This document shows, one piece after another, positions 18,709-38,000 of a stretch of DNA of 64,000 nucleotides (its first letter is position 1; the number at the start of each line of letters is the position of its first letter). The position numbers and the translations under genes were made by a program. The stretch covers positions 7,297,802-7,361,801 of the forward strand of contig NZ_CP160680.1 in NCBI RefSeq assembly GCF_040784935.1, in the 5' to 3' direction. The DNA comes from Lewinella sp. LCG006 (GTDB lineage: Bacteria; Bacteroidota; Bacteroidia; Chitinophagales; Saprospiraceae). The notes beneath the pieces were generated by a model. That model saw only the letters and a list, made by a program, of their open reading frames with translations, had not been told where the DNA came from and did no database searches.

Positions 18709-21700
18709 TTATTTTACTACAATCATCTTCTTAGTTGCAGTGAACTCCCCGGCCGTTACCGTGTAAGTCAATACACCCGTAGCACCTTGGATCATCTCCT
18801 TGGTTAAGTTGATCGTATTGTAACCAGCGGCGTAATCACCACGTACTACATTCAGTACGCGACCACTTGCGTCGCTGATCGTTACCGAGACGGATGTCAA
18901 TCCGTCTCTACCCGCATCCGCTGGCAGACCTGCCTGCCGGTCAGGCAGGCTGAAACCGATCAAGGTTTCTACCGCGAATGGGTTTGGCGTGTTCTGGAAC
19001 AGTTCAAAACCTGCAGCAATAACTTCTCCGCTGTTAAACACCACCCCTAAACCAAGCACCTGTTCTCCCCTCTCAGGGGAGATGTCCGCGAGGACAGAGG
19101 GGTAGGCCTCTGCAGCCGTGTAGCGGCTAGATACGTTGATGATATCGCTCAACTCAGCATCTACCGTTGGGCGGATCACCAGGCTGAATAGAACATCGTC
19201 GTGGGAGACGGATGTCAATCCGTCTCTACTGCCGCCGTTCTGGTTCCAGCTCATCGTGATGGCACCTTCAGCAGCGTAACGCATACCGAAGTTCTCAGCA
19301 ATTGCTACACCGTACTCCATGTCTACCAGTTCTGCACCATTCAGATTCAAGGTACCCTGGTAGCCTTCAATAGTCGACATATTCTCACCCGTAATCGCTA
19401 CGGTGTAAGTGTTGCCTGCCTTCATGGAAATATTCTCAGCAACCAGATTGAACTGGCCATTCAGCGTACGATCATCACCCGCCAAGGCATTGGCTTGCGC
19501 TGATCCGTTCACATCACCGATCTTCACACCCACGAAGTCCGCATCCAGTACATCACCCGCCAGGTTGTTCTCATTGATCAACTCGGGGAAGACTTCTGAC
19601 CATGGATTCGTTGGAACAGGGAAGCTATAAGCAGCTTCCACAAAGCGCCAGCTCGTGTTGTTCGCAAACTGCGTATCAATGTTCAAGATCAGTTTACGGA
19701 TCTGGATCATATCCAGCGTCGTTACCGTTCCACTACGGTTGGCATCCGCAGCGATCAGCTTGTAAGGGCTGTTCAACAGTTGCGTTCCTAAGACGTGCTT
19801 GCTGATCAGGATCAAGTCAAACGTCGTCACTCCGTTCAGCGGGTTGGCGTTCAGGTAAGGCGTTACCGAGTAGTCACCGCCTTGGGTCAGGTTGCTGAAG
19901 CTGTAGGTGCCCGTCGTATTTGTAGTCATCGTAGCGGTCATGCCGCCGTTGATACTCACCTCGACCCCTTCGACTGCTTCGTTGGATTCCGTCATGATTA
20001 CACCAGCGATGGTGCCATCACCAGGATCACCACAGTCAACGTGCTGCTGTACCAATACATACGTCTCACAGTAATCGTAGTTACCTTCTTCGTCGAAAGC
20101 GTAGACGTATACTACTGTCGTAGCTTCGTCATCCTGCGTCAATACCAATCCAGTATCATCTGGGCTTGGTACGAAGTTTGGATCAGCTTCTACATCTGCT
20201 GCACGGTAGATAGCGTACTTCGTCACGCGAGGTAGACCACCGAACAGTTCTGGTCCCTGACCAGTACAGTCACTGATTGGTGAACCTTCGAAGTCAGAAG
20301 CCCAGATTGCCATGGCACAACCACCTTCTTCTTGTGGCATCAAGGTTACGGTCAAGCCGTTGATACATACTGGTGCTGGTCCTTTACAGTCGATCACATC
20401 GAACACGATGGTCTCGCTGGTCTGGTTACCACAACCGTCCTCAAACAATACGCGTACTGCGTGGTAGATGTTATCACCCATTGCAGAAGTAATGATTGGG
20501 AAAGTACCTGCGAATACGTAAGTACCGTCACCGTTGTCGGTGATGTTACCCAATACGTTCAAGTCTGCTACGAATTCGTTCGACTTGATGTCGCCGTCGC
20601 CGTTAGCGTCTACTGCAAATGCGTCTAGCTGTGCAGATACCAGGCTTACTACCAAGTTTCCGTCACCGTCAAACAATTCACACTCGTCAGCTACGCTGAA
20701 TGGAATGCTTACTGCTTCTTCACAGTTGCCGTCGTCATCACCAAACTGACCAGCCAATAGGTCAGGACAGTTAGCCGTAGGACCTCCGTACTCACCAACA
20801 GTTACTACTGGTGCGGTTGAGTCATATACTTTCACGAATTGCGTGTAGATGTAACGACCGAAGTTACGACGACCAAACTGGTCAGCAGGAATACAGCCGA
20901 TGCCGTTACCTGGGATGTTGTCGTATACGGTGTTAGGAATATCAGAATCTCCGTCACGGTCATTGTGGCGGCGATCGATCACTACGCTGTACTGGATACC
21001 GGGTTGAGGATCAACTTCGTTATCACAGTTGTTGTCTACTGGTCCGAAGCCACTCACCACCCGTACTACTGGGCGCTCGTTGCCTTCTACCGCACGGTCT
21101 ACAGGAAGTGCCTCACCGTCGTCTTCGGTCATGCGAGGAAGAACAAGTCCTTCGTACTCACCATCCCAAACACACCAGTTGATCACATCGTAAGTGATCG
21201 AGAACTTGTAGCATTCATCACCCGTAGCAGAGAAGATCACTGGCTCACCAATGTTTACGCTCAATACATCACAACCTACAGTGGTCGTAATGATCGTCGG
21301 TACATCAGGATCGCCACAATCAGCATCAGCATCTTCTGGGAAGTCGATCGTGAAGTCGTGTACTTCCGTGATCGTGATCAGCTGGCTACAGCTGTTCGTT
21401 GAACGGAATACTTCGTTGATGTCAATAGCTCCGTTGCCGTTAGCATCGCCCTCTGGGCGCAACTGCCAAGCTTCGAAACGGCGGGTGATAGTTCCCCAAC
21501 CACAATCGTTAACCTGGATGTTTGGCGTACGCTCTACGATGGTGTCAACAGCACAGTTGTCTGTACCCGTTGCTCCTCCGAAGATAGAGCTCATCATGAT
21601 AGAAGTAGCAGCAAAGTCTTCGTCGTAAGCCGTAGCAATATCACCAGGGAAAGCCAATGGCAAGTTAGAACAAGTCAATGTTACTGGTGCTGGTGCATAA

Positions 21701-24378
21701 CAGAATGGGTTCAATTTATCTTCTGGAGTGATCACCATCCAACAGATGTTCTCGTTTCCTGACTCGTCAGTTACACGTAGTTCGATCGTGATTTCGTTGT
21801 CGATATCACAGCAGTAGAAGTCTACAAAGTCGCCCCATGGGCTCCAACGGTTAGCACTTGCATCACAAGTGTTGTTGCGCCAGTAGTTACGACGTACTTC
21901 CAAAGTTACTGCTCCACAGTTGTCGTTAGAACCTTCGTCAACGTCAGAAGCGAAGATGCGTGCGATACCCAGGATACCTTGAGCGGAGTCACCACCGCCA
22001 ATAGATACGTTCAATTCGTCGTCACATGATGCACTTGGCTCGATCTCGTCCGTTACGATCAAGTCGTACTCTTCACAAGTTTCGTTGCCACAGTCATCTT
22101 CGGCACAGATGATCAGGATGTGCTCACCAATTGGTGCTGATACTACATCTCCGTCACACAAGTCACCACCAGCGAAGAATGATTCGCCGAAAGCAAGTAC
22201 CGTGTAAGTCGTGCCAGCTACGCTTGAACAACCATTACCGTCGGTAAGGGTAGGACATGGAATCGCTACGTTCGCCAAACAGCTGAATGGTGAAGTAGAT
22301 ACGTTGATTACTGCTGGAATACCAGTGATTACTGGGCCAGTAGCATCAAATACTTTGATCAACTGCTGAAGCGTACCAGAACCGCCTGGGTTACACCAGT
22401 CGATGATGTTCCACTCACGACGAAGCTTGTAAGTACCTTCACAAACAGTGATACGTGGCTCATCAGAGTAAGAAGCTCCGATGTTACAGTAAATCTGATC
22501 AAGGTCGTAGAAACCAAATGCCGTACGCAACCATGGGTAGCCAGATGCTGATGGGTGAGGGTTGCCATTCGCATCAACAGCGAAGTTCTCGTCACACTCC
22601 AAAGGAGCTACAAATGGTGGGAATACCAAGTCGCCAATCGTTGGCTTACGGAAAGTAATCGTCTGCGTACATGCTGCCGTGCGTGGAGCACCTACACATA
22701 CACCATCGTAACGGTCTGAGACCGTGAACGTACGTGAAAGCGTTACATCACCACAATCACCTGCAGCACTTACTGCATCAGAAAGGGTAACTTTTACTGG
22801 ACCACAGTTGTCGCCAACTACAGGGAAACCAGTCAGGTTTACTTTTGCAATGAAAGCATTCAAAGCAGCAGTGCTACCTCCAAAGAAGGTGTTACGCGTA
22901 GCCGTGAAGTTCAAGGTACCATCTGCACTTGCAATCCATGACTGAGGCGTCTGGAAGCGGATGAAGTTGATATCGTCACATACCAAATCACGGGTATCGG
23001 TAATATTTACTGGGGTAAATTCTGGACCAGAAACACCCGTGTTGTTATCAGAATAGATGCTTACCGTCCAGTTACCAAACTGCGTCGTCAACCAGTTGGT
23101 CAATACCAAGGTATAGGTCGTGTTAGGCAACAAAGGCAGGCTCAAACGTAGCGCTGGATCGAATGGGTTACCTCCAGGTACGAAAGCATCGTCAGAAGAA
23201 CCGATGAGGTTCTCACAGGGTGCTGTAGGATCGAAACCGCCCTGGAACAGGAACATGCTTCCATCACCCCACGCAGTCTCCATCAAGATCGTGTATACGT
23301 CAACAGGAATAGCAAAGTCTGGCGTAGTGAAAGTTACTACGTCATAGTTGTGCACACCGTCAGCCAGGAAGCCCTGGTTCAAACAGCTGTAGTTGTTGAA
23401 GTTCAAGGTTGCATCGCCAGCATTGAGGTTACCGCTTGCTTGGTGAGCAGCGTAGTCCTGCGTTACGGTGCTTGTGTTCGCTGGGCAAGTAACTACTGGA
23501 TTGGTTTTGTCTTCGGCGAAGATGTTGCCCCAGCAGGTGTAAACCAGTTCGCCTTCTACATAAATTTCTACCATGTACGTGTGCTCACCACAACCAGTGA
23601 TCACATTAGAGTTACCGCCATCTACCGTCACAATCACTTCATCGGCACAGGCATAATTTCCAGTGATTACCATTGGTGCTACAATGGTAGCTGTGCATTG
23701 AGCTCCCAGGGTTACGTTGACATCAGCAATACAGCCTACTTCAATAGGATCGTCACAATCACAGGGAATGATAAAGCTATCCGGATTATTGTCTTCGTAA
23801 ATATCTTCACTAGGAGCATTATCAATGCTCATGGACATTTGGTTATTGAAGTTCGCACCCAGATTGTTGAAGATAGCTTGCTGGATCGCGCTGTCATTGA
23901 TCAAGACCTGAATATTTCCTCCATTACAACCTTCTGGCAGTTCAAAGGAAAAAAGAGGAATCGGTGTACCATTGACTACATTGTTCAGTATCGGTGAATT
24001 CTGTAGCACTACCTGGTAAACGTCGTTTCCTTGCAGGTCGGCTTCATCAAATCCCAGCATATCGTAAGTCGCAGGATCCACCAGCTGTGCTCCCCACAGT
24101 CCGGTAATATCCACAAATGAGCCCACCGCAGGGGCTGGACTTATCGAAGGATTGGTCACCGTACCTTCCGGTAAAAGAAATGTAAAGACTGCCGTAGAGA
24201 TCGTCACGTCAGTAGAGGAAAAATCAGGGTAAGCCAAAGCGGTGATCACCTGTGGTTCTCCCGCACTTTGTTGAAACCCGTAGGTGATTCCTTGCCCATG
24301 TATCGAGCCGGTAAAAACCAAGCTCAACAGGAGCAGTAAAAAAAGTAATGGTCGTTTCATTTTCGTCTTTTTATACAT
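18709..24378 (-). CDS. 1889-aa T9SS-secreted protein: shared N-module, HYR-like core, dockerin- and cohesin-like regions
   Basis: ATG at 24378. Signal peptide (MYKKTKMKRPLLFLLLLLSL, cleavage after HGQ), then a module of about 180 residues (YGFQQ ... ITALAYPDFSS ... NNQMSMSIDNAP) also found in the next two upstream genes. A long Cys-rich HYR/PPC-like core follows (about 210-1450), homologous to the genes at 1-3295 and 3722-9049. Then come a carboxypeptidase-regulatory-like segment (about 1455-1520), a dockerin-like pair (NGVTTFDLILISKHVL; AADANRSGTVTTLDMIQIRK, about 1520-1625), a cohesin-like beta domain (about 1640-1780, VAITGENMSTIEGYQGTLNL) and a type A T9SS sorting domain at the end (LFQNTPNPFAVET ... 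TKKMIVVK). It starts 12 bp after the stop of the 24391 gene, so they are surely co-transcribed. Short palindromes inside the last 350 codons add in-frame peptides. Role: cell-surface structural or adhesive protein, inferred. Confidence 0.9.
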   Translation of the reverse strand: MYKKTKMKRPLLFLLLLLSLVFTGSIHGQGITYGFQQSAGEPQVITALAYPDFSSTDVTISTAVFTFLLPEGTVTNPSISPAPAVGSFVDITGLWGAQLVDPATYDMLGFDEADLQGNDVYQVVLQNSPILNNVVNGTPIPLFSFELPEGCNGGNIQVLINDSAIQQAIFNNLGANFNNQMSMSIDNAPSEDIYEDNNPDSFIIPCDCDDPIEVGCIADVNVTLGAQCTATIVAPMVITGNYACADEVIVTVDGGNSNVITGCGEHTYMVEIYVEGELVYTCWGNIFAEDKTNPVVTCPANTSTVTQDYAAHQASGNLNAGDATLNFNNYSCLNQGFLADGVHNYDVVTFTTPDFAIPVDVYTILMETAWGDGSMFLFQGGFDPTAPCENLIGSSDDAFVPGGNPFDPALRLSLPLLPNTTYTLVLTNWLTTQFGNWTVSIYSDNNTGVSGPEFTPVNITDTRDLVCDDINFIRFQTPQSWIASADGTLNFTATRNTFFGGSTAALNAFIAKVNLTGFPVVGDNCGPVKVTLSDAVSAAGDCGDVTLSRTFTVSDRYDGVCVGAPRTAACTQTITFRKPTIGDLVFPPFVAPLECDENFAVDANGNPHPSASGYPWLRTAFGFYDLDQIYCNIGASYSDEPRITVCEGTYKLRREWNIIDWCNPGGSGTLQQLIKVFDATGPVITGIPAVINVSTSPFSCLANVAIPCPTLTDGNGCSSVAGTTYTVLAFGESFFAGGDLCDGDVVSAPIGEHILIICAEDDCGNETCEEYDLIVTDEIEPSASCDDELNVSIGGGDSAQGILGIARIFASDVDEGSNDNCGAVTLEVRRNYWRNNTCDASANRWSPWGDFVDFYCCDIDNEITIELRVTDESGNENICWMVITPEDKLNPFCYAPAPVTLTCSNLPLAFPGDIATAYDEDFAATSIMMSSIFGGATGTDNCAVDTIVERTPNIQVNDCGWGTITRRFEAWQLRPEGDANGNGAIDINEVFRSTNSCSQLITITEVHDFTIDFPEDADADCGDPDVPTIITTTVGCDVLSVNIGEPVIFSATGDECYKFSITYDVINWCVWDGEYEGLVLPRMTEDDGEALPVDRAVEGNERPVVRVVSGFGPVDNNCDNEVDPQPGIQYSVVIDRRHNDRDGDSDIPNTVYDNIPGNGIGCIPADQFGRRNFGRYIYTQFVKVYDSTAPVVTVGEYGGPTANCPDLLAGQFGDDDGNCEEAVSIPFSVADECELFDGDGNLVVSLVSAQLDAFAVDANGDGDIKSNEFVADLNVLGNITDNGDGTYVFAGTFPIITSAMGDNIYHAVRVLFEDGCGNQTSETIVFDVIDCKGPAPVCINGLTVTLMPQEEGGCAMAIWASDFEGSPISDCTGQGPELFGGLPRVTKYAIYRAADVEADPNFVPSPDDTGLVLTQDDEATTVVYVYAFDEEGNYDYCETYVLVQQHVDCGDPGDGTIAGVIMTESNEAVEGVEVSINGGMTATMTTNTTGTYSFSNLTQGGDYSVTPYLNANPLNGVTTFDLILISKHVLGTQLLNSPYKLIAADANRSGTVTTLDMIQIRKLILNIDTQFANNTSWRFVEAAYSFPVPTNPWSEVFPELINENNLAGDVLDADFVGVKIGDVNGSAQANALAGDDRTLNGQFNLVAENISMKAGNTYTVAITGENMSTIEGYQGTLNLNGAELVDMEYGVAIAENFGMRYAAEGAITMSWNQNGGSRDGLTSVSHDDVLFSLVIRPTVDAELSDIINVSSRYTAAEAYPSVLADISPERGEQVLGLGVVFNSGEVIAAGFELFQNTPNPFAVETLIGFSLPDRQAGLPADAGRDGLTSVSVTISDASGRVLNVVRGDYAAGYNTINLTKEMIQGATGVLTYTVTAGEFTATKKMIVVK
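18887..18908. repeat. Palindromic element inside coding sequence, family 1 copy 1
   Basis: GAGACGGAT-gtca-ATCCGTCTC, perfect 9-bp arms. Identical to the copy at 19205-19226, including flanking bases (TA after the right arm). In frame it encodes the peptide RDGLTSVS within the T9SS sorting domain of the 1889-aa protein. Confidence 0.75.
18929..18949. repeat. Palindromic element inside coding sequence, family 2
   Basis: CCTGCCTG-ccggt-CAGGCAGG, perfect 8-bp arms, 20 bp from the family 1 copy. In frame it encodes part of DRQAGLPADAG, an insertion between IGFSLP and the VTISDASGR strand of an otherwise standard sorting domain. Confidence 0.7.
19064..19102. repeat. Compound palindromic element inside coding sequence, family 3
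   Basis: Two adjacent hairpins, TCTCCCCT-ctc-AGGGGAGA (19064-19082) and TGTCC-gcga-GGACA (19083-19096), with an alternative outer pairing CCCCTCT/AGAGGGG (19067-19073 with 19096-19102). In frame it encodes PSVLADISPERGEQ in the linker before the sorting domain. Confidence 0.65.
19205..19226. repeat. Palindromic element inside coding sequence, family 1 copy 2
   Basis: Second exact copy of GAGACGGAT-gtca-ATCCGTCTC, 318 bp from the first. In frame it encodes RDGLTSVS between MSWNQNGGS and HDDVLFSLV in the cohesin-like domain, a surface-loop position. Confidence 0.75.
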
Positions 24379-24390
24379 GAGATTAAATTA

Positions 24391-25299
24391 TCAATTATCG
24401 ATTTTTACCAGTTTCGCTTTGAGTAGTAAGTCTTCAGCTTTACTGGTCAGGAGGTAACTCCCCGCAGGAAGTTGTGATAGATCTAGCTCCAGGGTGTTTA
24501 TTCCGGGAATAAAATGAGTCTTTTGCCGAAGTACCTCGCGTTGTCTTACATCATAGAGAATGAGTTCTCCCTCAGCACTAATATTAGACGTAATTACTAC
24601 GGTCGTAGAAGTTGTTGCAGGGTTTGGCTGTACCCTGAGCTTAGGTGCTATCGCTTGGTATTCGTTCGTCGACACAAGCAGCAAGGGACAAGCTATTTGA
24701 GCACTGAAAGGATCTTTTTCGTCGTAAATATCTACCGCCGGTTCATCCGCAATGCTTACAGACATTTGATTGTTAAAATTAGCGCCCAGGTTTTGCAGCA
24801 CTACCCCTCTGATCAAACCATCGTTGGTCAGCACCTCAATATTTCCCTCGTAGCAGTCGTCAACCAGGGTAAAGGAAAACAGAGGAATTCCTTCCCCCTC
24901 AACGATGTTATTGAACTCCGGAGAGCTTCTTAATACGACCTGGTAAACATCATTACCTTGTAAGGCTTGCCCGTTCAGCCCAACGCTGTTAAACACCTGC
25001 GGAGTGAGCTTTTGAGCTGACCAGCTGCCATTATGATCCACAAAAGCTCCAGCAGCAGGAACCACCTCGATGGAAGGGGTAATCGCTACTTCAGACGGTA
25101 TTGAAAAGGAAAAAACTGCCGTCACCATGGTCACATTGTCCGAGGAAAAATTCGGGATAGCTACCGCCGTGATACGCAATGGGTTTTCCGTATCCTGTAC
25201 AAAACCATAACGAATCGACTGTGCGAAAAGCCCCGTAACCAGTCCTTGAGAAAGGCACAGCAACAAAAACAAAAGATATTTTTGCTTTAAGTATTTCAT
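24391..25299 (-). CDS. Short T9SS protein: shared N-module plus sorting domain only
   Basis: 302 aa from the ATG at 25299 (MKYLKQKYLLFLLLCLSQGL...). An ATG at 25311 four codons upstream is equally open; the inner one gives a more typical signal peptide. After cleavage (near LFAQ) comes the shared module (YGFVQD ... ITAVAIPNFSSDNVTMVTAVFSF ... GANFNNQMSVSIADEPAVDIYDEKDP, to about residue 205). A linker and a complete type A T9SS sorting domain follow (LRVQPNPATTSTTVVI ... LDLSQLPAGSYLL ... KAKLVKIDN). It is thus the minimal version of the larger neighbours: the same module with a surface anchor and nothing else. Stop is 12 bp before the 1889-aa gene, and 61 bp separate it from the upstream gene. 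Possibly a docking or nucleating partner for the larger proteins, which is inference. Confidence 0.88.
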   Translation of the reverse strand: MKYLKQKYLLFLLLCLSQGLVTGLFAQSIRYGFVQDTENPLRITAVAIPNFSSDNVTMVTAVFSFSIPSEVAITPSIEVVPAAGAFVDHNGSWSAQKLTPQVFNSVGLNGQALQGNDVYQVVLRSSPEFNNIVEGEGIPLFSFTLVDDCYEGNIEVLTNDGLIRGVVLQNLGANFNNQMSVSIADEPAVDIYDEKDPFSAQIACPLLLVSTNEYQAIAPKLRVQPNPATTSTTVVITSNISAEGELILYDVRQREVLRQKTHFIPGINTLELDLSQLPAGSYLLTSKAEDLLLKAKLVKIDN

Positions 25300-25316
25300 G
25301 TCATTTATCATAAAAT

Positions 25317-25344
25317 GGGGAACCCGACTAAAGTCAGCTTCCCC
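25317..25344 (-). promoter_or_regulatory. Hairpin between the 2210-aa gene and the short module gene
   Basis: GGGGAA (25317-25322) pairs with TTCCCC (25339-25344), with inner GACT/AGTC. On the minus strand it follows the 2210-aa stop by 16 bp and is followed by ATTTTATG. It could be a leaky terminator that reduces expression of the two downstream genes. Confidence 0.45.
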
Positions 25345-25360
25345 TTATTAGTAAATCAAA

Positions 25361-28300
25361 TTATTGTGGTAATTGCTCAGGTATTACGAAAGTCTGCAGT
25401 CGAATAAAGTTGCGGGGATGACCATCAACATTATTGAAAATCGGATCTACATCATTGTTCTGCCCAGCGAAAATCGTCTCACCACTCAGGTTAACATCGC
25501 CAAGATTGTAGCCTGGCAAAATGAAAGTTTGAAGGCGCAAGAAGTTAGCAGTGGCCTGATCAATCTCGTTGAAAATCGGATCTTTATCGTTGGCCTGACC
25601 AGCATAAATAACCGAGCGATTGGCATTGGTGTTGCCCGCCCATAAGGCGTACTGACCATTGACCGTAATCTGCTCCAAGCCATCAAATGCAGGGGTGTTT
25701 TCCCACAATTCAGTAGCGAGGTTAACAAAATCAACTACCGTTGCCGTGGGCGACATTGCAATCGGATCAGCACTCATCGTTCCCAGGTGGTTGCGGTGCC
25801 GTACCGCTACGTAGTAGCTGCCCAGAGAAGATTGGGTGAAACACAGCGGGCTAACGCCGTCTACCTCCACAATATCTCCATCCCGCTGCACTAACCCGGA
25901 GCGAGTATCAACTACTTCCGTAGGATCTACTGCGCTTCTGAGCTCAACAAAAACCCAATCAACAATTGAATTAGCGCCGTAATCAGCAAATACTACCCCA
26001 GGGTTACTAATCGTTTCTCCGCCACCATTCACATGGGTGAAACCAAGCGCAGTGTAAGGCTCCGTAGTAGGAATCACACCGTCCTGTCTCAAATCATCAC
26101 GCATCAGGTTGTCAGGAGAACCAAGAAGAGCACCTTGTAACATTACGCGTGGCAATAGCTTAACCAATGGTTCTGGTATCAAGATCGTCACCGTCGGGTC
26201 GTCCTCGAAGTTATCGTTGTCATCAGACAAATCTGTTACTGGATCACCGTTGGGGTCGGTACCCGTAGCCAAAGCCTGGTTCGTAACACCACCGGCATCT
26301 ATATCCGCTTGAGTAATCACGTAGCTCGCGGTGAACGTCGTGTTGTCACTCGCACCTACCGCCAAGGTTGCCAGTGGGCCACCCATGACTGTGACCAGTG
26401 GGTCAGTGACCGTGACGTTGGTCAGGGTTACGTTGCCCGTATTCGTCACCGTGAACGCGTAGGTGATCGTCTCCCCTACTTGCGCAAAACCATCACCACT
26501 CTCATCCTGGAACGTGCCGCTCTTGATGATTGCAATCGCTGGGTTGATCGGCAGCGGCGTCACCGTTGGATCGTCCTCGAAATTGTCATTGTCATCAGAC
26601 ACATCCGTGGTAGGATTGCCGTTCGGGTCCGTACCCGTAGCCGTGGCCTGGTTCGTAACACCACCGGCATCTATGTCCGCCTGTGTTATCACATAAGAAG
26701 CTGTGAACGTCGTAGCGTCACTCGCACCTACCGCCAAGGTTGCCAATGGGCCACCCACCACTGTGACCAGTGGGTCCGTGACTGTGACGTTGGTCAGGGT
26801 TACGTTGCCCGTGTTCGTCACCGTGAACGCGTAGGTGATCGTCTCACCTACTTGCGCAAGGCCGTCGCCACTCTCATCCTGGAATGTGCCGCTCTTGATG
26901 ATTGCAATTGAAGGGTTGATCGGCAGCGGGGTCACCGTTGGATCGTCCTCGAAATTATCATTGTCATCGGAGATGTCCGTGGTAGGATTACCGTCAGGGT
27001 CGGTACCCGTAGCCGTAGCCTGGTTCGTAACACCACCGGCATCTATGTCTGCTTGGGTTATCACATAAGAAGCGGTGAACGTCGTGTTATCACTCGCGCC
27101 TACCGCTAAGGTTGCCAGTGGGCCACCCATGACTGTGACCAGTGGGTCGGTTACCGTGATGTTGGTCAGGGTTACGTTGCCCGTATTCGTCACCGTGAAC
27201 GCGTAGGTGATCGTCTCCCCTACTTGTGCAAAACCGTCGCCACTCTCATCCTGGAATGTGCCGCTCTTGATGATCGCAATCGCTGGGTTCTGGGGGAGAG
27301 ACGTCACGGTCGGATCATCTTCCAAGTTGTCATTGTCATCTGACACATCCGTGGTAGGATTACCGTCAGGGTCCGTACCCGTAGCCGTAGCCTGGTTCGT
27401 AACACTACCAGCATCTATGTCCGCTTGGGTAATCACATAAGAAGCTGTGAACGTCGTGTTATCACTCGCACCTACCGCTAAGCTCGCCAGTGGGCCACCC
27501 ATCACGGTTACCAGTGGGTCAGTGACCGTGACGTTGGTCAAGGTCACGTTGCCCGTGTTCGTCACGGTGAACGCATAGGTGATCGTCTCGCCTACTTGTG
27601 CGAAGCCATCACCACTCTCATCCTGGAACGTGCCGCTCTTGATGATTGCTATTGATGGGCTCTGAGGGAGAGACGTCACGGTCGGATCATCTTCCAAGTT
27701 GTCATTGTCGTCAGACACATCCGTGGTAGGATTGCCGTTCGGGTCCGTACCCGTGGCCGTAGCCTGGTTCGTAACACTACCGGCATCTATGTCCGCCTGT
27801 GTTATCACATAAGAAGCTGTGAACGTCGTGTTATCACTCGCACCTACCGCTAAGCTCGCCAATGGGCCACCCATCACGGTTACCAGTGGGTCAGTGACCG
27901 TGACGTTGGTCAGGGTCACGTTGCCCGTGTTCGTCACCGTGAACGCGTAGGTAATCGTCTCCCCTACTTGCGCAAAACCATCACCACTCTCATCCTGGAA
28001 TGTGCCGCTCTTGATGATTGCAATTGAAGGGTTGATCGGCAGCGGGGTAACCGTTGGATCGTCCTCGAAGTTATCATCGTCATCAGACACATCCGTGGTA
28101 GGATTACCGTCAGGGTCCGTACCTGTAGCCGTAGCTTGGTTCGTAACACCGCCGGCATCTATGTCCGCCTGTGTTATCACATAAGAAGCGGTGAACGTCG
28201 TGTTATCACTCGCACCTACCGCTAAGCTCGCCAGTGGGCCACCCACCACTGTGACCAGTGGGTCGGTTACCGTGATGTTGGTCAAGGTTACGTTGCCTGT

Positions 28301-31300
28301 GTTCGTCACCGTGAACGCGTAAGTGATCGTCTCGCCTACTTGTGCAAAGCCGTCGCCATTCGTATCCTGGAACGTGCCGCTCTTGATGATCGCAATTGCT
28401 GGGTTCTGGGGGAGAGACGTCACGGTCGGATCATCTTCCAAGTTGTCATTGTCATCAGACACATCCGTGGTAGGATTGCCATTCGGATCCGTACCTGTAG
28501 CCGTAGCCTGGTTCGTAACACCACCAGCATCTATGTCCGCTTGCGTCAATACGTAAGAAGCTGTGAACGTCGTTACGTCACTCGCGCCAACTGCTAGAGT
28601 TGCCAGTGGGCCACCCATCACGGTTACCAGCGGGTCCGTGACCGTGACGTTGGTCAGGGTTACGTTGCCCGTGTTCGTCACCGTGAACGCATAGGTAATC
28701 GTCTCGCCTACTTGTGCAAAACCGTCGCCATTCGTATCCTGGAACGTGCCGCTCTTGATGATCGCAATTGCTGGGCTCTGAGGGAGAGACGTCACGGTCG
28801 GATCATCTTCCAAGTTGTCATTGTCGTCAGACACATCCGTGGTAGGATTGCCGTTCGGGTCCGTACCCGTGGCCGTAGCCTGGTTCGTAACACTACCGGC
28901 ATCTATGTCCGCTTGGGTAATCACGTAGCTCGCGGTGAACGTCGTGTTGTCACTCGCACCTACCGCTAAGCTCGCCAGTGGGCCACCCATCACGGTTACC
29001 AGTGGGTCCGTGACCGTGACGTTGGTCAAGGTGACGTTGCCCGTGTTCGTCACCGTGAACGCGTAGGTGATTGTCTCGCCTACTTGTGCAAAACCGTCGC
29101 CGCTCTCATCCTGGAATGTGCCGCTCTTGATGATCGCTATTGCGGGGCTCTGAGGGAGAGACGTCACGGTCGGATCGTCTTCCAAATTGTCATTGTCATC
29201 TGACAAATCTGTTACTGGATCACCGTTGGGGTCCGTACCCGTAGCCGTAGCCTGGTTCGTAACACCACCGGCATCTATGTCCGCTTGAGTAATCACGTAG
29301 CTCGCGGTGAACGTCGTGTTGTCACTCGCACCTACCGCTAAGCTCGCCAGTGGGCCACCCATCACGGTTACCAGTGGGTCCGTGACCGTGACGTTGGTCA
29401 AGGTCACGTTGCCCGTATTTGTCACCGTGAACGCGTAGGTAATCGTCTCGCCTACTTGTGCGAAGCCATCACCGCTCTCATCTTGGAACGTACCGCTCTT
29501 GATGATCGCAATTGCTGGGTTCTGGGGGAGAGACGTCACGGTCGGATCGTCTTCCAAGTTGTCATTGTCGTCAGACACATCCGTGGTAGGATTGCCGTTC
29601 GGATCCGTACCTGTAGCCGTAGCCTGGTTCGTAACACCACCTGCTTCTATGTCCGCTTGGGTAATCACATAAGAAGCTGTGAACGTCGTGTTATCACTCG
29701 CACCTACCGCTAAGCTCGCCAGTGGGCCACCCATAACTGTGACCAGTGGGTCCGTGACCGTGACGTTGGTCAAGGTTACGTTGCCCGTGTTCGTCACCGT
29801 GAACGCGTAGGTGATTGTCTCGCCTACTTGTGCAAAACCGTCGCCGCTCTCATCCTGGAATGTGCCGCTCTTGATGATTGCTATTGCGGGGCTCTGAGGG
29901 AGAGACGTCACGGTCGGATCGTCTTCCAAATTGTCATTGTCATCTGACAAATCTGTTACTGGATCACCGTTGGGGTCGGTACCCGTAGCCGTAGCCTGGT
30001 TCGTAACACCACCAGCATCTATATCCGCCTGTGTTATCACATAAGAAGCTGTGAATGTCATGTTGTCACTCGCACCTACAGCTAAGCTCGCCAGTGGGCC
30101 ACCCATCACGGTTACCAGTGGGTCCGTAACCGTGACGTTGGTCAAGGTTACGTTGCCCGTGTTCGTCACTGTGAACGCGTAGGTAATCGTCTCGCCTGCT
30201 TGTGCAAAACCGTCGCCATTCGTATCCTGGAACGTGCCGCTCTTGATGATTGCAATCGCTAGGTTGATCGGCAGCGGCGTCACCGTTGGATCGTCCTCGA
30301 AATTATCATTGTCATCGGAGATGTCCGTGGTAGGATTACCGTCAGGGTCGGTACCCGTAGCCGTAGCCTGGTTCGTAACACCACCGGCATCTATGTCCGC
30401 TTGGGTAATCACATAAGAAGCTGTGAACGTCGTGTTATCGCTCGCGCCTACCGCTAAACTCGCCAGTGGGCCACCCATCACCGTTACCAGTGGGTCCGTG
30501 ACCATAACGTTGGTCAAGGTCACGTTGCCCGTATTTGTCACCGTGAACGCATAGGTAATCGTCTCGCCTACTTGTGCGAAGCCATCACCGCTCTCATCTT
30601 GGAACGTACCGCTCTTGATGATCGCAATTGCTGGGTTCTGGGGGAGAGACGTCACGGTCGGATCGTCTTCCAAGTTGTCATTGTCGTCAGACACATCCGT
30701 GGTAGGATTGCCGTTCGGGTCCGTACCTGTAGCCGTAGCCTGGTTCGTAACACCACCTGCTTCTATGTCCGCTTGGGTAATCACATAAGAAGCAGTGAAC
30801 GTCGTGTTATCACTCGCACCTACAGCTAAGCTCGCCAATGGGCCGCCACTCACTGTGACCAGCGGGTCCGTGACCGTGACGTTGGTCAGGGTGACGTTGC
30901 CCGTGTTCGTCACCGTGAACGCGTAGGTGATCGTCTCGCCTACCTGTGCGAAGCCATCACCACTCTCATCCTGGAACGTGCCGCTCTTGATGATTGCTAT
31001 TGCGGGGCTCTGAGGGAGAGACGTTACGGTCGGATCGTCTTCCAAGTTATCATTGTCGTCAGACAAATCTGTTACTGGATCACCGTTGGGGTCGGTACCC
31101 GTAGCCGTAGCCTGGTTCGTAACACCACCAGCATCTATATCCGCCTGTGTTATCACATAAGAAGCTGTGAACGTCATGTTGTCACTCGCACCTACAGCTA
31201 AGCTTGCCAGTGGGCCACCCATCACCGTGACCAGTGGATCCGTGACCGTCACATTGGTTAGCAGTGAATTACCTGTGTTGGTTACTGTAAAGGCATAGGT

Positions 31301-31993
31301 GATTGTCTCCCCTACTTGGGCAAAGCCATCACCGCTCTCATCCTGGAACGTGCCGCTCTTGATGATCGCGATCTCTGCGGTTAATAGCATACAAGGTAAA
31401 GAGAAAGAAGCAGGATTATTTCCTGCATAAATATCCATAGAAGGTGCGTCATCTACACTAATCGACATTTGGTTATTGAAATTCGCACCAAAAACTGCAA
31501 AAACCCCTTGTTGAATAGAACCATCATTGGTGAGCACTTCTACGTTGCCGCTCATACAGTCATTCGGTAATCTAAAAGAGAAAAGCTCAATTGGAGCTCC
31601 CGAAGTTGCGTTAGGAGATGGTGAGTTTTGCAAAACAACCTGATATACATCATAGCCGCCGAAGCCATTCGTTGTTCCCGCAAACATATCGTAAAGATCC
31701 TCCGTTAACAGCTGTGCAGTCCAGGAACCTGTAATATTGATAAAAGGTCCTGAACCAGGTAAAGGAGGAATAGCCGGATCGGTAACAGTACCCTCTGGCA
31801 AAATAAAGCTGAAAACAGCTGTAGAAATGGTTACGTTATTCGAAGTGAAATTCGGATAAGCAACCGCGGTAATATCCAAAGGATCATTTGGATCCTGGAT
31901 AAAACCATAGGTAACTTCATTCTGTCCCCAAAGGGAGGAAAAGGAAAGCAACCAAAGAAATACGATACTGATCACATTATAGTGAAACTTCAT
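25361..31993 (-). CDS. 2210-aa secreted protein: shared N-module, 14 DUF11-like repeats, unusual C-terminal module
   Basis: ATG at 31993; signal peptide MKFHYNVISIVFLWLLSFSS (cleavage after LWGQ). Residues 24-205 are the module shared with the two following genes. Residues about 205-1940 are fourteen near-identical 124-aa DUF11-like repeats (IIKSGTFQDESGDGFAQVGE ... TYAFTVTNTGNVTLTNVTVTDP), an Ig-like fold usual in bacterial surface stalks. The last 265 residues (from LVKLLPRVMLQGALLGS) contain two dockerin-like loops (NRSVIYAGQANDKDPIF; GDVNLSGETIFAGQNNDVDPIF) and end in VIPEQLPQ without a recognisable T9SS type A or B signal. The same C-terminal module ends the 2599-aa protein 77 bp upstream. 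Likely a long extracellular stalk or fibre; its attachment mode is unknown. Confidence 0.9.
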   Translation of the reverse strand: MKFHYNVISIVFLWLLSFSSLWGQNEVTYGFIQDPNDPLDITAVAYPNFTSNNVTISTAVFSFILPEGTVTDPAIPPLPGSGPFINITGSWTAQLLTEDLYDMFAGTTNGFGGYDVYQVVLQNSPSPNATSGAPIELFSFRLPNDCMSGNVEVLTNDGSIQQGVFAVFGANFNNQMSISVDDAPSMDIYAGNNPASFSLPCMLLTAEIAIIKSGTFQDESGDGFAQVGETITYAFTVTNTGNSLLTNVTVTDPLVTVMGGPLASLAVGASDNMTFTASYVITQADIDAGGVTNQATATGTDPNGDPVTDLSDDNDNLEDDPTVTSLPQSPAIAIIKSGTFQDESGDGFAQVGETITYAFTVTNTGNVTLTNVTVTDPLVTVSGGPLASLAVGASDNTTFTASYVITQADIEAGGVTNQATATGTDPNGNPTTDVSDDNDNLEDDPTVTSLPQNPAIAIIKSGTFQDESGDGFAQVGETITYAFTVTNTGNVTLTNVMVTDPLVTVMGGPLASLAVGASDNTTFTASYVITQADIDAGGVTNQATATGTDPDGNPTTDISDDNDNFEDDPTVTPLPINLAIAIIKSGTFQDTNGDGFAQAGETITYAFTVTNTGNVTLTNVTVTDPLVTVMGGPLASLAVGASDNMTFTASYVITQADIDAGGVTNQATATGTDPNGDPVTDLSDDNDNLEDDPTVTSLPQSPAIAIIKSGTFQDESGDGFAQVGETITYAFTVTNTGNVTLTNVTVTDPLVTVMGGPLASLAVGASDNTTFTASYVITQADIEAGGVTNQATATGTDPNGNPTTDVSDDNDNLEDDPTVTSLPQNPAIAIIKSGTFQDESGDGFAQVGETITYAFTVTNTGNVTLTNVTVTDPLVTVMGGPLASLAVGASDNTTFTASYVITQADIDAGGVTNQATATGTDPNGDPVTDLSDDNDNLEDDPTVTSLPQSPAIAIIKSGTFQDESGDGFAQVGETITYAFTVTNTGNVTLTNVTVTDPLVTVMGGPLASLAVGASDNTTFTASYVITQADIDAGSVTNQATATGTDPNGNPTTDVSDDNDNLEDDPTVTSLPQSPAIAIIKSGTFQDTNGDGFAQVGETITYAFTVTNTGNVTLTNVTVTDPLVTVMGGPLATLAVGASDVTTFTASYVLTQADIDAGGVTNQATATGTDPNGNPTTDVSDDNDNLEDDPTVTSLPQNPAIAIIKSGTFQDTNGDGFAQVGETITYAFTVTNTGNVTLTNITVTDPLVTVVGGPLASLAVGASDNTTFTASYVITQADIDAGGVTNQATATGTDPDGNPTTDVSDDDDNFEDDPTVTPLPINPSIAIIKSGTFQDESGDGFAQVGETITYAFTVTNTGNVTLTNVTVTDPLVTVMGGPLASLAVGASDNTTFTASYVITQADIDAGSVTNQATATGTDPNGNPTTDVSDDNDNLEDDPTVTSLPQSPSIAIIKSGTFQDESGDGFAQVGETITYAFTVTNTGNVTLTNVTVTDPLVTVMGGPLASLAVGASDNTTFTASYVITQADIDAGSVTNQATATGTDPDGNPTTDVSDDNDNLEDDPTVTSLPQNPAIAIIKSGTFQDESGDGFAQVGETITYAFTVTNTGNVTLTNITVTDPLVTVMGGPLATLAVGASDNTTFTASYVITQADIDAGGVTNQATATGTDPDGNPTTDISDDNDNFEDDPTVTPLPINPSIAIIKSGTFQDESGDGLAQVGETITYAFTVTNTGNVTLTNVTVTDPLVTVVGGPLATLAVGASDATTFTASYVITQADIDAGGVTNQATATGTDPNGNPTTDVSDDNDNFEDDPTVTPLPINPAIAIIKSGTFQDESGDGFAQVGETITYAFTVTNTGNVTLTNVTVTDPLVTVMGGPLATLAVGASDNTTFTASYVITQADIDAGGVTNQALATGTDPNGDPVTDLSDDNDNFEDDPTVTILIPEPLVKLLPRVMLQGALLGSPDNLMRDDLRQDGVIPTTEPYTALGFTHVNGGGETISNPGVVFADYGANSIVDWVFVELRSAVDPTEVVDTRSGLVQRDGDIVEVDGVSPLCFTQSSLGSYYVAVRHRNHLGTMSADPIAMSPTATVVDFVNLATELWENTPAFDGLEQITVNGQYALWAGNTNANRSVIYAGQANDKDPIFNEIDQATANFLRLQTFILPGYNLGDVNLSGETIFAGQNNDVDPIFNNVDGHPRNFIRLQTFVIPEQLPQ
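26172..31379. repeat. Fourteen tandem 372-bp repeats encoding DUF11-like domains
   Basis: The 124-codon unit recurs fourteen times with no length change; landmark positions such as 26463, 26835 and 27207 are spaced exactly 372 bp. Units differ mainly in a few third bases and in linker type (SLPQSP, SLPQNP or PLPINP). The linker order repeats in threes (units 1-3, 7-9, 10-12), showing a higher-order period of 1116 bp. Confidence 0.93.
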
Positions 31994-32070: not shown

Positions 32071-35000
32071 TTAGGGAGTTAATTCTTGTGCTAGCTGTTC
32101 AAGAATGATGAAGGTCTGTATCTTAAAGAAGTTAGCAGGATGCCCGTCGACATTATTGAAGATGGGATCCACATCATTTCTTTGTCCCGCATAAATGGTA
32201 TCACCATCCAGATTAACATCGGTTAGATTATACCCTGGAAGGATGTAAGTTTGAATCTTGAAAAAGTTGCCAGGAGCACTGTCAATCTGGTTAAAGATCG
32301 GGTCCTTGTCATTCAACTGCCCCGCGAAAACTACGCGATCATCACTCAGTGTATTCCCTGACCAAAGGGCATATTGTCCATTGACAACTATCTGTTCTCG
32401 ATTATCGAAACTTGGTTGATTATTCCACAAATCCAGATTCGTATCCATAAAGTTTACTTCGACACCTGAGGAAGTAAGCGTTATTGCATTGGCAGTCATC
32501 GTCCCTAAGTGATTGCGATGGCGGACTGCTACATGGTAGTCACCCGGCGTAGATTGTGTAAAGCATAAGCTACTTACTCCATCTACATCGACGACATCAC
32601 CGTCTTTCTGTAAAAGACCGGCGCGCGTTTCTACCACCATAACCGGATTGCTGGACGAGCGAAGCTCGACAAATACCCAGTCAACGATGGAATTATCGCC
32701 TAAGTCCGCAAAGACTGTCCCGGGGTCAGCTACCGTTTCGCCTCCGCCGGCTCCTACGTGGGTAAACGCCGCCAACGCAGTGTAGGGCTCAGTGCTAGGG
32801 AGCATGCCGCGTGCACGCAGGTCGTCCCGCATCAAACCATCCGTAGAACCCAATAATGCACCATGTAGCTGAACTTTGACCTCTAGCTTAACTAAAGGAG
32901 GTGACAGTAAGGTTACCGTAGGATCATCCTCCAGTGGATCATTGTCATCTGACACATCAGTTACCGGATCTCCGTTAGGGTTCGAACTCGTAACCGTAGC
33001 CTGGTTCGTAACACTGCCTGCATCAATATCCGCTTGCGTCAGTACGTAGCTGGCGGTAAAGGTTGTGTTGTCACTTGCGCCTACGGCCAAAGTTGCTAAA
33101 GGACCTCCACTCACGGTAACCAGTGGGTCTGTAACTGTTACGTTCGTCAACGTAACATTGCCCAGGTTCGTTACCGTAAACATGTAGGTAATCGTCTCGC
33201 CTACTTGCGCAAAACCATCACCGCTCTCATCCTGGAACGTACCAACCTTGATAATCGCTATTTCGGGGTTCTGAGGCAGAGGAGTCACCGTAGGATCGTC
33301 CTCGAAATTGTCATTGTCATCAGATACATCCATGACTGGATTACCATTGATGTCCGTACCCATGACCAAAGCCTGATTCGTAACGCTGCCTGCATCAATA
33401 TCTGCTTGCGTCAATATGTAGCTCGCCGTAAAGGTGGTGTTGTCACTTGCACCTCCAGCCAAAGTTGCCAAAGGTCCTCCACTCACCGTAACCAATGGAT
33501 CTGTAACCGTTAGGTTTGTCAACGCTTCGCTGCCCAGGTTCGTTACGGTAAACGTGTAGGTAATCGTTTCGCCTACTTGCGCAAAACCATCACCGCTCTC
33601 ATCCTGGAAGGTACCATTCTTGATGAGTGCTATATTTTCACACGAATCCGGAAGTCCATCCCCATCAGCATCAAGTGTATCTGGACCTTCACAACATTTA
33701 TCGAGACAGTCAGGTGTACCATCACCATCGCTATCCGCTTGGACGTAAGCGTAATACACACTAATGGTTCCTCCAAGCACAGACACCGCTGCAAGGCTTG
33801 CATCAAAGGTGATTTGTACCTCATCGAAATCCAAGGTGGTAGCAAAGCTCAGGTAGGTAACTTCACTACCATTATTCAGTAAACTGACACTCACCAATGG
33901 GTTACTTGTCAAAACTGTTTCCTGAGGAGTACCTCCCAAGTAGGTAGTGAGAGAGATATTATCCAGCAGACCTATATCTAGTAAACTCGGCTCTATACCA
34001 ATAGCATAACCAGCTAGACTCCCCCCCGCTACGACTGAAGTCGTAGCTACAGATAAGCTTACATCGCCCAAGGCCGCAGCTAACAAATCAATCGTTGTGG
34101 GCTGCGTCAGATCATCATCGATAAGGTTGGAGAGAGAATCAACGCTACACCCTACGCAAGCTACTCCGCTAAAACCACTTCTTTCGTAAACGATTCCTCC
34201 ACAGTAGTCAGAGGACGTAGTAAGCGGAGTTCCACAAAGATCCCTAATGTCGGTGATCGTATTGGCATCAAGACAGGACGTAGGCTCCGTAAAAGCATAA
34301 TAGATTCTCGCAGTCGTCAATAAATCTAACGAAGCAAGACCTCCCTGTATGATCAACTCCACCTCATCAAATGGCTGGGTGGTCACGAAAGCCAAACGCT
34401 GTTGCCCGTTCGCACCCAAGGCATCAAGGTTGAGTAAATTTGCACTTCCTATTCCTGCCTGTTCTGCTGGGACACCATTGTTGTAGGTCTGGATTGCGAA
34501 AACATCCAATAAATCCAGACTTAATAAACCACTAGGAAAATTCACCACAAAGCCCGTTCTCAATCCGGCAGGATATTCTTGGAGCGTATCTCTAACTGAA
34601 ATCAAACGGGTATTGCCTCCTAATAGACTCAAACTGAGCAGACTACTTTCTTCCGTAAAATTACTCAGGTCTCCATCCACCACATTATCAGCATCAACAT
34701 TGCCACAGTTGGAACAAGAACCATTATCATTGATGATCACGCCGGGGCCAACGATTGGGTCATTGCACTCAAGTGGCCCTTGCGAGGTGAAATACGCTAT
34801 GGCTATTGTATCCGCACAAACACCGTTCGACAGCTCGAACAGGTAGATGCCTTCCATATCTAATCCGGTAATGACACCCGCAGCATCAATACTTGCAGCA
34901 CTTGGATTGCCCATAACCGGCGACCAGGTTTCTCCGGCACCTGCTGGTGATAGGGTAAAGGTCGTAGCAGAAGTACACGCCGAGGCATCAACTCCTGCAT

Positions 35001-38000
35001 TAACCATACAGTCGTTATCGCAGAAATCGGGGGTTCCATCACCATCGGCATCAAAATTATCGTCGCCACCCGCACATTGGTCAACACAATCGGGATAACT
35101 ATCTCCATCGGTATCAGGACGCACAAAACCGTAATAGATGCGGTAGGTGGTGGCCAAGCTTAGCACGCTCGAAATCGTAATTCTTACTTGATCAAAAGCT
35201 TGGGTCGTAGGAAAACTAATCAGGTTAATATTTCCTGTCAATACCCCTACATTCGCTAATGAGCTATTAGCAACGAAGGTCTCCACCACACTACCATTGT
35301 CGTAGGTTTGGATCGTAATGCCACCCAGAACGTCCAGGGAAAGCAGACCGAGCAAGCCAACTTGCTCAATGGCAAAGCCAACCTCATAATTGGCAGGGAT
35401 ATCTTCACCGATGTCGATATCGAGATAATTAGATTCTGCTAATAGAAAAACATCTGACGCAAAGTCTGTTGTATTGGCATTCGTTGTATTTGAAAAGTTA
35501 TCAAAACCATCTTCCAGACAAGAAACCACAAACAACTCGCAATTGGTGCTAGCAGAAGCCATCGGATAATTGGCCGTTGTAAGGGTCGTAGCACAATTAT
35601 AGTCACATCCATCTACTTCTTCATAAGCGTAATAAACGCGCAACGCAGAGATCAGACTGAGGTTAGCGATGCCCGTCAGACGAAGTTCGACCTCATCAAA
35701 AGGCAGCGTCGTAAGAAAGTCCACTCTCCTCTTGCTTCCTGGTCCAGCAAGTAAAGCAAGGGAAATTGGCGAACCTTCGCCCCCAACCTGTGCTGTTTCT
35801 TGCAGTTGATTATTGAGGTAGGTACGAATTTCCAGATCATTCAACACATCTGCACCAATCAATCCACCCTCGGCGGAAACCACAAAACCGGTTCGCTGAC
35901 CCGCTGGGTAAGTATTATTGACATCTTTTACCGATACCAAAGAAACAGCACCCACCCCGATAAGGTCAGTACCGTTGAATGCGATAAAATTGGTTAGATC
36001 TCCATCTACGATTACATCTGAATCACTGGAGCCGGATAGTGCACTCACCAGACTACCCGCAAGCTGATCTACTACAACCCCTTTGCCTACGATGGGATCG
36101 TTACAGCCCACAACTGGAGGTGATGGAGGTAATGACGTTACGGTTGGATCATCCTCCAACGGATCATTGTCATCTGAATCATCCGTTACCGGATCACCGT
36201 TAGGGTTTGTACTCATGACCGTAGCCTGATTCATAACACTACCAGCATCAATATCCGCTTGCGTCAATACGTAGTTCGCCGTGAACGTTGTATTGTCACT
36301 CGCACCTGCTGCCAACGTTACCAAAGGACCACCACTTACGGTGACCAGTGGGTCCGTAACCGTTACATTGGTCAACGTAACGTTACCCAAGTTCGTAACT
36401 GTAAATGTATAGGTAATCGTTTCACCTACTTGTGTAAAGCCATCGCCGCTCTCATCCTGGAACGTACCACTCTTGATCATCGCTATTGCAGGGTTCTGAG
36501 GTAAAGAAGTCACCGTGGCGTCGTCTTCGAGGTTATCGTCGTCATCGGAAAGATCTGTTACCGGATCACCGTTGATGTCCGTACCCATGACCGTAGCCTG
36601 GTTCGTAACACTGCCTGCATCAATGTCCGCTTGCGTCAGTACGTAGCTGGCTGTAAAGGTGGTGTTGTCACTTGCACCTCCAGCCAAAGTTGCCAAAGGT
36701 CCTCCAATCACGGTAACCAGTGGGTCTGTAACTGTTACATTGGTCAACGTGACATTGCCCAGGTTCGTCACCGTAAACACGTAGGTAATCGTCTCGCCTA
36801 CTTGCGCAAAGCCATCGCCGCTCTCATCCTGGAAGGTACCAACCTTAATGATTGCTATTCCCGTGTTCTGAGGTAAAGAAGTCACCGTAGCGTCGTCTTC
36901 GAAATTACTGTCGTCATCGGACACATCCATGGCCGGATTGCCATTGATGTCCGTACCCATGACCAAAGCCTGATTCGTAACGCTGCCTGCATCAATATCT
37001 GCTTGCGTCAATATGTAGCTCGCCGTAAAGGTGGTATTGTCACTTGCACCTCCATCCAAAGTTGCCAAAGGACCTCCACTTACAGTAACGAGTGGATCTG
37101 TAACCGTTAGGTTTGTCAACGCTTCGCTGCCCAGGTTCGTCACTGTAAACGTGTAGGTAATCGTTTCGCCTACTTGCGCAAAGCCATCGCCACTCTCATC
37201 CTGGAATGTACCATTCTTGACAATCGCCAGATTTTCACACGAGTCTGGTAATCCATCCCCATCAGCATCAAGTGTATCCGGACCTTCACAACATTTATCG
37301 AGACAGTCAGGTGTACCATCACCATCGCTATCCGCTTGGACGTAAGCGTAATACACACTAATGGTTCCACCAAGCACAGACACCGCTGCAAGGCTTGCAT
37401 CAAAGGTGATTTGTACCTCATCGAAATCCAAGGTGGTAGCAAAGCTCAGGTAGGTGATATCGCTGCCATTGTTAAGTAAACTAGCGCTTACCAAAGGATT
37501 GCTGGTTACAACAGTTTCCTGTGGTGTACCTCCCAGATAAGTTGTGAGAGAGATATTATCTAGCAGACCTACATCCAGTAAACTGGATGCTATGCCGATT
37601 GCAAAACCGGCTATGCTTCCTCCATCCACCACGGTAGTGGTCGCTACGGATAAGCTTACATCCCCCAAGGCCGCAGCTAACAAATCAATCGTTGTGGGCT
37701 GGGTCAAGTCATCATCGATAAGGTTGGAAAGAGAATCAACACTACATCCTACACAAGCGACACCGCTAAAGCCACTTCTTTCGTAAACGATTCCTCCACA
37801 ATAATCAGAGGAAGCAGTAAGTGGAACTCCACAAAGTTCTGTGACATCTGTGATCGTATTGGCATCGGGACAGGAAGTAGGTTCGGTAAAAGCATAATAG
37901 ATTCTCGCAGTCGTCAATAAATCTAATGAAGCAAGACCTCCCTGTATAATCAACTCCACCTCATCAAATGGCTGGGTGGTCACGAAAGACAAACGCTGTT

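Follow-up and report, generated by a model that had tools for sequence, protein, structure and literature searches.

Cohesin–dockerin pairs are the closest described counterpart of the gene cluster analysed here; the dockerin loop unit is about 22 aa long, the canonical dockerin calcium loop has 12 residues, and non-cellulosomal cohesin and dockerin modules exist outside cellulose degradation. With the cellulosomal systems, including X-module–dockerin dyads (PDB 4wi0 and 2b59), the cluster shares a weak cohesin-like fold match of an N-terminal module, a C-terminal putative ligand (hereafter the tail) in which a duplicated loop–helix unit follows a transthyretin-like domain, and candidate receptors that carry anchor signals, stand several to a protein in relatives and occur as matched families within one cell. 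It differs from them in that neither module nor tail is recognised by Cohesin or Dockerin sequence models, the tail loop unit is ~45 aa long with a non-canonical loop, the presumed cargo is a repeat adhesin-like protein rather than enzymes, anchoring is by the type IX secretion system (T9SS), and one protein, B, bears both an N-terminal candidate receptor and a C-terminal candidate ligand. The non-cellulosomal modules are similar in placing cohesin- and dockerin-like parts outside cellulose degradation, but module and tail match no named Pfam family and the tail none in NCBIfam. A further point of comparison is provided by the T9SS sorting domains of types A, B and C, of which type B signals need more than 200 residues according to PMC10202324. 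The tail is C-terminal like these domains, but none of the models for types A and B recognises it, which sets it apart from these two types. No description of a module–tail pair was found in full-text literature searches or in passages of PMC10202324.

The window, the whole 64,000-nucleotide stretch of Lewinella sp. LCG006 DNA that was analysed, contains the following features.

32071–39870, minus strand: gene A, 2599 aa, with large repeats, five DUF11-type repeats and the tail, and no N-terminal module
32074–32898, minus strand: tail domain of A
25361–31993, minus strand: gene B, 2210 aa, with N-terminal module, 14 DUF11-type repeats and tail
31376–31921, minus strand: N-terminal module of B
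26189–31375, minus strand: repeat region of B, 14 DUF11/DUF7507 repeats of ~124 aa each
25364–26188, minus strand: tail of B, transthyretin-like part and then two loop–helix repeats (~25364–25657)
24391–25311, minus strand: gene C, 306 aa, N-terminal module plus T9SS type A signal; proposed surface receptor
24685–25221, minus strand: N-terminal module of C, modelled with AlphaFold2
24403–24627, minus strand: T9SS type A sorting domain of C (residues 229–303)
18709–24378, minus strand: gene D, 1889 aa, with N-terminal module, long ectodomain and T9SS type A signal, and with carboxypeptidase-regulatory-like and dockerin-like stretches, both below the Pfam cut-off
23755–24294, minus strand: N-terminal module of D
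19687–19830, minus strand: Dockerin_1-like stretch of D, below the Pfam cut-off
18718–18897, minus strand: T9SS type A sorting domain of D (residues 1828–1887)
23287–28245, minus strand: 4,959-bp tract identical in a second cluster within this genome (C1:3391610-3396568)

The sequence-only reading had proposed that D, C and B share one N-terminal module of ~180 aa, and this was confirmed for three consecutive minus-strand open reading frames (ORFs). The two other modules are 49% and 51% identical to the C copy over ~180 aa, the genome-search E-values for these two modules outside C (1.0e-50 and 7.8e-57) are far beyond chance, and in all three proteins the module is preceded by an apparent signal peptide, as read from the sequence. 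The short gene is a real ORF that spans 24391–25311 when counted from its first ATG, and the 25299 originally given fits an internal ATG. The 14 DUF11-type repeats assigned to B were recovered as DUF7507 and TIGR01451 matches, and the T9SS type A signals assigned to C and D scored just above the cut-off (23.3 and 26.4 bits against 23). The HYR core assigned to D was not confirmed, as no HYR Pfam family was found there at E≤1, nor was a Cohesin family at the same threshold, and the dockerin-like region of D does give a Dockerin_1 match, but a sub-threshold one (16.9 against 22.9 bits). B had been read as ending without a signal; no T9SS signal match was found in it (E≤1), but its end is a conserved domain, the tail. 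A likewise showed no match to known T9SS signal models, and neither A nor B contains an enzyme family above its cut-off. By eye, gene A also carries a large internal duplication, and no clear Pfam family could be assigned to its CNDPIVGKG-type domains.

In an alignment of 29 module copies, 18 columns are invariant. The structure check called for by the sequence-only reading was run, and in the AlphaFold2 model of the C module (mean pLDDT 92.7, pTM 0.88, mostly beta) residues ~24–205 form a compact domain. In the Foldseek search against the PDB, ranks 1–12 were drawn from five entries, with eleven chains coming from the cohesin-titled entries 5lxv, 2vo8, 4n2o and 2jh2 and the remaining one, 4fl4_K, from a scaffoldin complex, and unrelated chains followed from rank 13 on. 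Because the best E-value was 0.026 and no match reached 0.001, with query TM-scores of 0.31–0.42 in the top 12, the cohesin-like fold assignment is consistent but weak. The cohesin-like strand pattern noted earlier is thus matched by a consistent series of cohesin chains, but all of these matches are weak, and no module matched Pfam Cohesin at E≤10 (0/29 and 0/39); the window module also gave no PDB sequence match. The B, C and D copies were not cleanly separated in a tree of the 29 modules, so that ancestral position-specific modules were discarded; in some lineages (L053 and L056) the modules group by locus.

The module might alternatively bind a glycan or host surface, its repetition in adjoining genes giving avidity. 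Sugar binding is common among beta-sandwich domains, the proteins resemble repeat adhesins, and rank 29 of the Foldseek search (E 0.36) is a CBM3-bearing enzyme, but the window copy matched no Pfam family, carbohydrate-binding families included, no carbohydrate-binding protein is named in the Foldseek top 12, and the tail family match described below would be left unexplained, so we hold this explanation to be very improbable.

The tail (~270–275 aa) ends both A and B and is alike in the equivalent genes of related genomes. In its AlphaFold2 model (mean pLDDT 69.5), the first ~160 residues form a mostly confident beta domain (block means 59–93), and the loop–helix remainder is of low confidence (block means 36–63) with two short helices. 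In 69 of 71 tails (z>4) the final ~100 residues consist of a tandemly duplicated loop–helix unit. Foldseek aligned this first part with transthyretin-like folds, including X-module–dockerin chains (4wi0_B, rank 3, E 0.089; 4u3s_B, rank 5, E 0.14; 2b59_B, rank 39, E 0.76), but general transthyretin-like folds rank equally high, and since the X-module–dockerin alignments span 75–88 columns, they probably cover the X-module only. In the window tails the position-12 acid of the calcium loop is replaced, as judged by eye against the general loop rule. Among 22 tails scanned, none was named by a Pfam or NCBIfam family, none matched Pfam Dockerin, and none matched the T9SS sorting models of type A or type B in either collection; searching PDB sequences yielded no known-family match for the tail. 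Tandem runs of stand-alone tail proteins (~260–320 aa) were observed in two relatives (L136:5847-9405 and L142:5497-7491).

Distribution was assessed for the module kind of the window, termed type-1. It is strong in 12 of 398 genomes of the family, with four more weak, is found in four of 298 genomes of the order, all four from the same family, and in two of 395 genomes of the phylum, the genome analysed here and G678 (weak, E 6.9e-9); the G678 match was not reproduced by hmmsearch on the G678 stretch, where the gene upstream of the weak match ends in a tail. The genome-collection scan, which used two short peptide patterns and may miss loci, returned 15 module loci, 14 of them with a tail gene, and in the remaining locus (L059) a module gene of 415 aa stands alone, with no tail in the examined stretch. 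Because the module is rare in family and phylum genomes and linked to tail genes, a universal T9SS leader, the alternative raised in the sequence-only reading, was rejected. The arrangement A, B, (C), D is found again in other loci, the repeats being of DUF11 type in L041, from the window's genus, and cadherin-like, as seen by eye, in L042 and L043. The tail itself is present in 193 of the 398 family genomes, in a survey that scored ~6 candidates per genome, tail copy numbers being lower bounds.

A set of 74 loci containing 104 tail ORFs was analysed. The sample is non-random, as L124–L143 and most of L144–L182 were chosen from top-scoring tail matches and L180–L182 for weak module matches, and it includes near-identical, non-independent genomes (e.g. 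L148/L151 and L159/L161). Beside 30 type-1 genes, these loci hold 54 genes of two further N-terminal module families, so that the family sizes are 30, 30 and 24, plus three singletons, and hhalign indicated that the three families are homologous (probabilities 97.6, 98.2 and 99.8; pooled 96.2). A tail is present in 47 of the 51 module-bearing loci overall, many of which were selected for holding one; no tail lies in the examined stretches of the multi-module loci L180, L181 and L182. With kinship and genome size uncorrected, all 12 strong type-1 genomes among the 398 searched are tail-positive, against 193/398 overall, and so are all 37 genomes found to carry the other two families among 247 searched. 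In L148, whose modules belong to another family, a module+tail gene (2168 aa) occurs with a module+T9SS gene (280 aa) and a gene of three modules and a T9SS type B signal (1896 aa); this gene set recurs in L151, L130 and L147 agree with it up to the limits set by their contig ends, and L126, L159 and L161 hold parts of it. The long anchored genes of L147, L148 and L151 carry T9SS type B signals, and TIGR04183 was found in nine of ten short module+anchor genes hand-picked from the other module families, the one without being in L141. Two to seven modules are present in 9 of 89 module ORFs, all from relatives (seven in L182, five in L181 and three in L180), a scaffoldin-like arrangement, and the three multi-module ORFs with a complete end all carry the T9SS type B signal TIGR04131 above cut-off. 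The earlier suggestion that the short module-plus-anchor gene is the receptor recruiting the others gains from its recurrence in other clusters and would fit these gene sets, but the partner it would recruit is probably the tail that ends A and B, instead of the dockerin-like loops of D.

The position of the tail raises another explanation, namely that it represents a novel sorting domain of T9SS type, comparable to the large type B signals and exporting A and B, with the module being an unrelated adhesive domain. Among 103 3′-complete ORFs the tail lies within 30 aa of the C-terminus in 101, but two tails (L152 and L156) are internal, and 13 proteins of at most 340 aa comprise little beyond a tail. 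That A and B match no T9SS signal and that type B signals are themselves long, as cited above, would agree with a sorting role, but 0 of 22 tails match the type A or B sorting models of Pfam and NCBIfam. A 736-aa lookalike (by eye) of what we take to be an M43 metalloprotease (L143:6056-8266) has the tail at its end and no T9SS signal; a metalloprotease of this kind usually has a sorting signal at the position where the tail sits, which is a point in favour of sorting. Against sorting, a signal for export would have no need to follow the family of the module.

Further evidence on this question came from L053, a locus in the metagenome-assembled genome (MAG) 'bacterium isolate RI_153' (0.55–0.63 G+C), where a module+tail gene (813 aa) adjoins a gene with a module and a different end reading YYLPTIKR (594 aa). 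In this MAG, the completeness of which is unstated, SprA_N and PF18962 gave 0 matches each, whereas two Lewinella-like control genomes were positive, each with a single SprA gene (two matches) and 150 or more PF18962 matches. Since L053 keeps the pair and no T9SS was found there, the genome speaks against the tail being a T9SS signal only, and we judge the sorting-domain explanation unlikely, if still worth weighing. Among 150 genomes searched the module occurs in the L053 genome only, and its absence from the 149 relatives suggests that it was gained horizontally. The YLP motif is a usual protein end in some other phyla, and six other open frames of the L053 genome end in a similar motif, all of 256 or 507 codons (507 being the whole examined stretch); against five control-pattern matches, the motif is not enriched by count. 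A 188-aa protein near the third module gene of this genome also has a YLP-type end. By eye, a small canonical-cohesin lookalike with a YLP-type end (L196:4437-5003) lies in the same genome beside a dockerin-like protein start (L196:1-4425), near the third module gene.

The relation between the two domains was also examined by comparing their families. A module gene lies within three same-strand ORFs of 71 of the 104 tail ORFs, and for these the nearest tail from another locus shares the module family in 71/71 cases by the loop–helix part and in 68/71 by the transthyretin-like part. In the genome analysed here a type-1 set coexists with a set of another module family (module gene L124:921-7250, tail C1:401429-402211), each with its own tail family, and therefore the match is not simply one family per species. 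In a distance test on 40 loci, in which the module was taken from a gene without a tail, module distance correlated with the loop–helix part at r 0.887 and with the transthyretin-like part at r 0.658, and the partial correlations were 0.791 (p 0.001) and 0.102 (p 0.018), respectively. The other 33 tail ORFs have no module gene within three same-strand ORFs of the examined stretch, and since tails are commoner than modules, many may have other partners.

Inheritance of entire clusters can explain part of this matching. Taken further, module and tail would not bind at all, and duplicated, shuffled surface genes would merely be kept together, with families matching because whole clusters are inherited. 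Within single families the Mantel partial r values (loop–helix/other) were 0.326/0.099, 0.722/0.623 and 0.401/0.451, a contrast that is weak or absent, as this explanation would have it, but over all 40 loci the module tracks the loop–helix part better than the rest of the tail. The grouping of modules by locus in L053 and L056 and the variation of repeat types between genera also agree with co-inheritance, whereas the tails present in 37/37 and 12/12 module genomes, and the pair adjoining in the genome with no detected T9SS, whose 149 other searched relatives lack the module, argue against it.

A sign of homogenisation that favours co-inheritance comes from the genome analysed here. In its 7.5 Mb the type-1 module occurs at six places, in the window cluster and a second copy, beside two modules of a distant family. 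The cluster as a whole exists in two copies, which lie 3.9 Mb from each other in opposite orientation. C is identical at 921 of 921 bases between the copies, D is 90.7% and the end of A ~77% identical, and the identical 4,959-bp tract covers part of the B repeats and tail, C and the head of D; B differs in length (2210 vs 3449 aa, ~ten repeat units apart). Recent gene conversion, or recent copying, between old paralogues would be expected to leave such a tract and fits better than a mobile element because the clusters are diverged paralogues with a single identical tract, and a mobile cassette was rejected on the same ground. Weighing these points together, we regard co-inheritance without binding as improbable. 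Separately, window positions 2–1226 (minus strand) match the core of the second D copy with ~82% DNA identity over 1,225 bp and mark another paralogue, with no module match at these positions.

We therefore favour, with a probability of roughly 0.58, the reading in which a cohesin-like receptor, the module, binds a dockerin-like ligand, the tail, and so tethers tail proteins to T9SS-anchored partners. C and D would be exported and fixed to the surface by the T9SS, presenting the module, and A and B, which have no known T9SS signal, would be held at the surface through tail–module docking. We infer the module–tail binding, its calcium dependence, the surface location of A and B and their crossing of the outer membrane. 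In form, the proposed pair works like cohesin–dockerin, but it is not classed as a cohesin–dockerin system proper, because module and tail lack the sequence matches that define both families. As B has a receptor head and a ligand tail, its head-to-tail polymerisation is conceivable, giving a fibre tunable by repeat length, seeded on anchored C and D and ended by A, which has the tail without the head; we consider such a fibre unlikely and put it forward as speculation.

The fibre, if it exists, would represent a novel type of self-assembling filament on bacterial surfaces, with several plug-and-socket families that exclude one another in a single cell, and orthogonal plug-and-socket pairs would be useful for protein assembly. 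Module and tail are two unnamed domain families, for which the two families within this one genome provide a built-in specificity control. The attachment role, if true, would explain the surface retention of many signal-less giant proteins of Bacteroidota, given that 193 of the 398 family genomes surveyed contain the tail.
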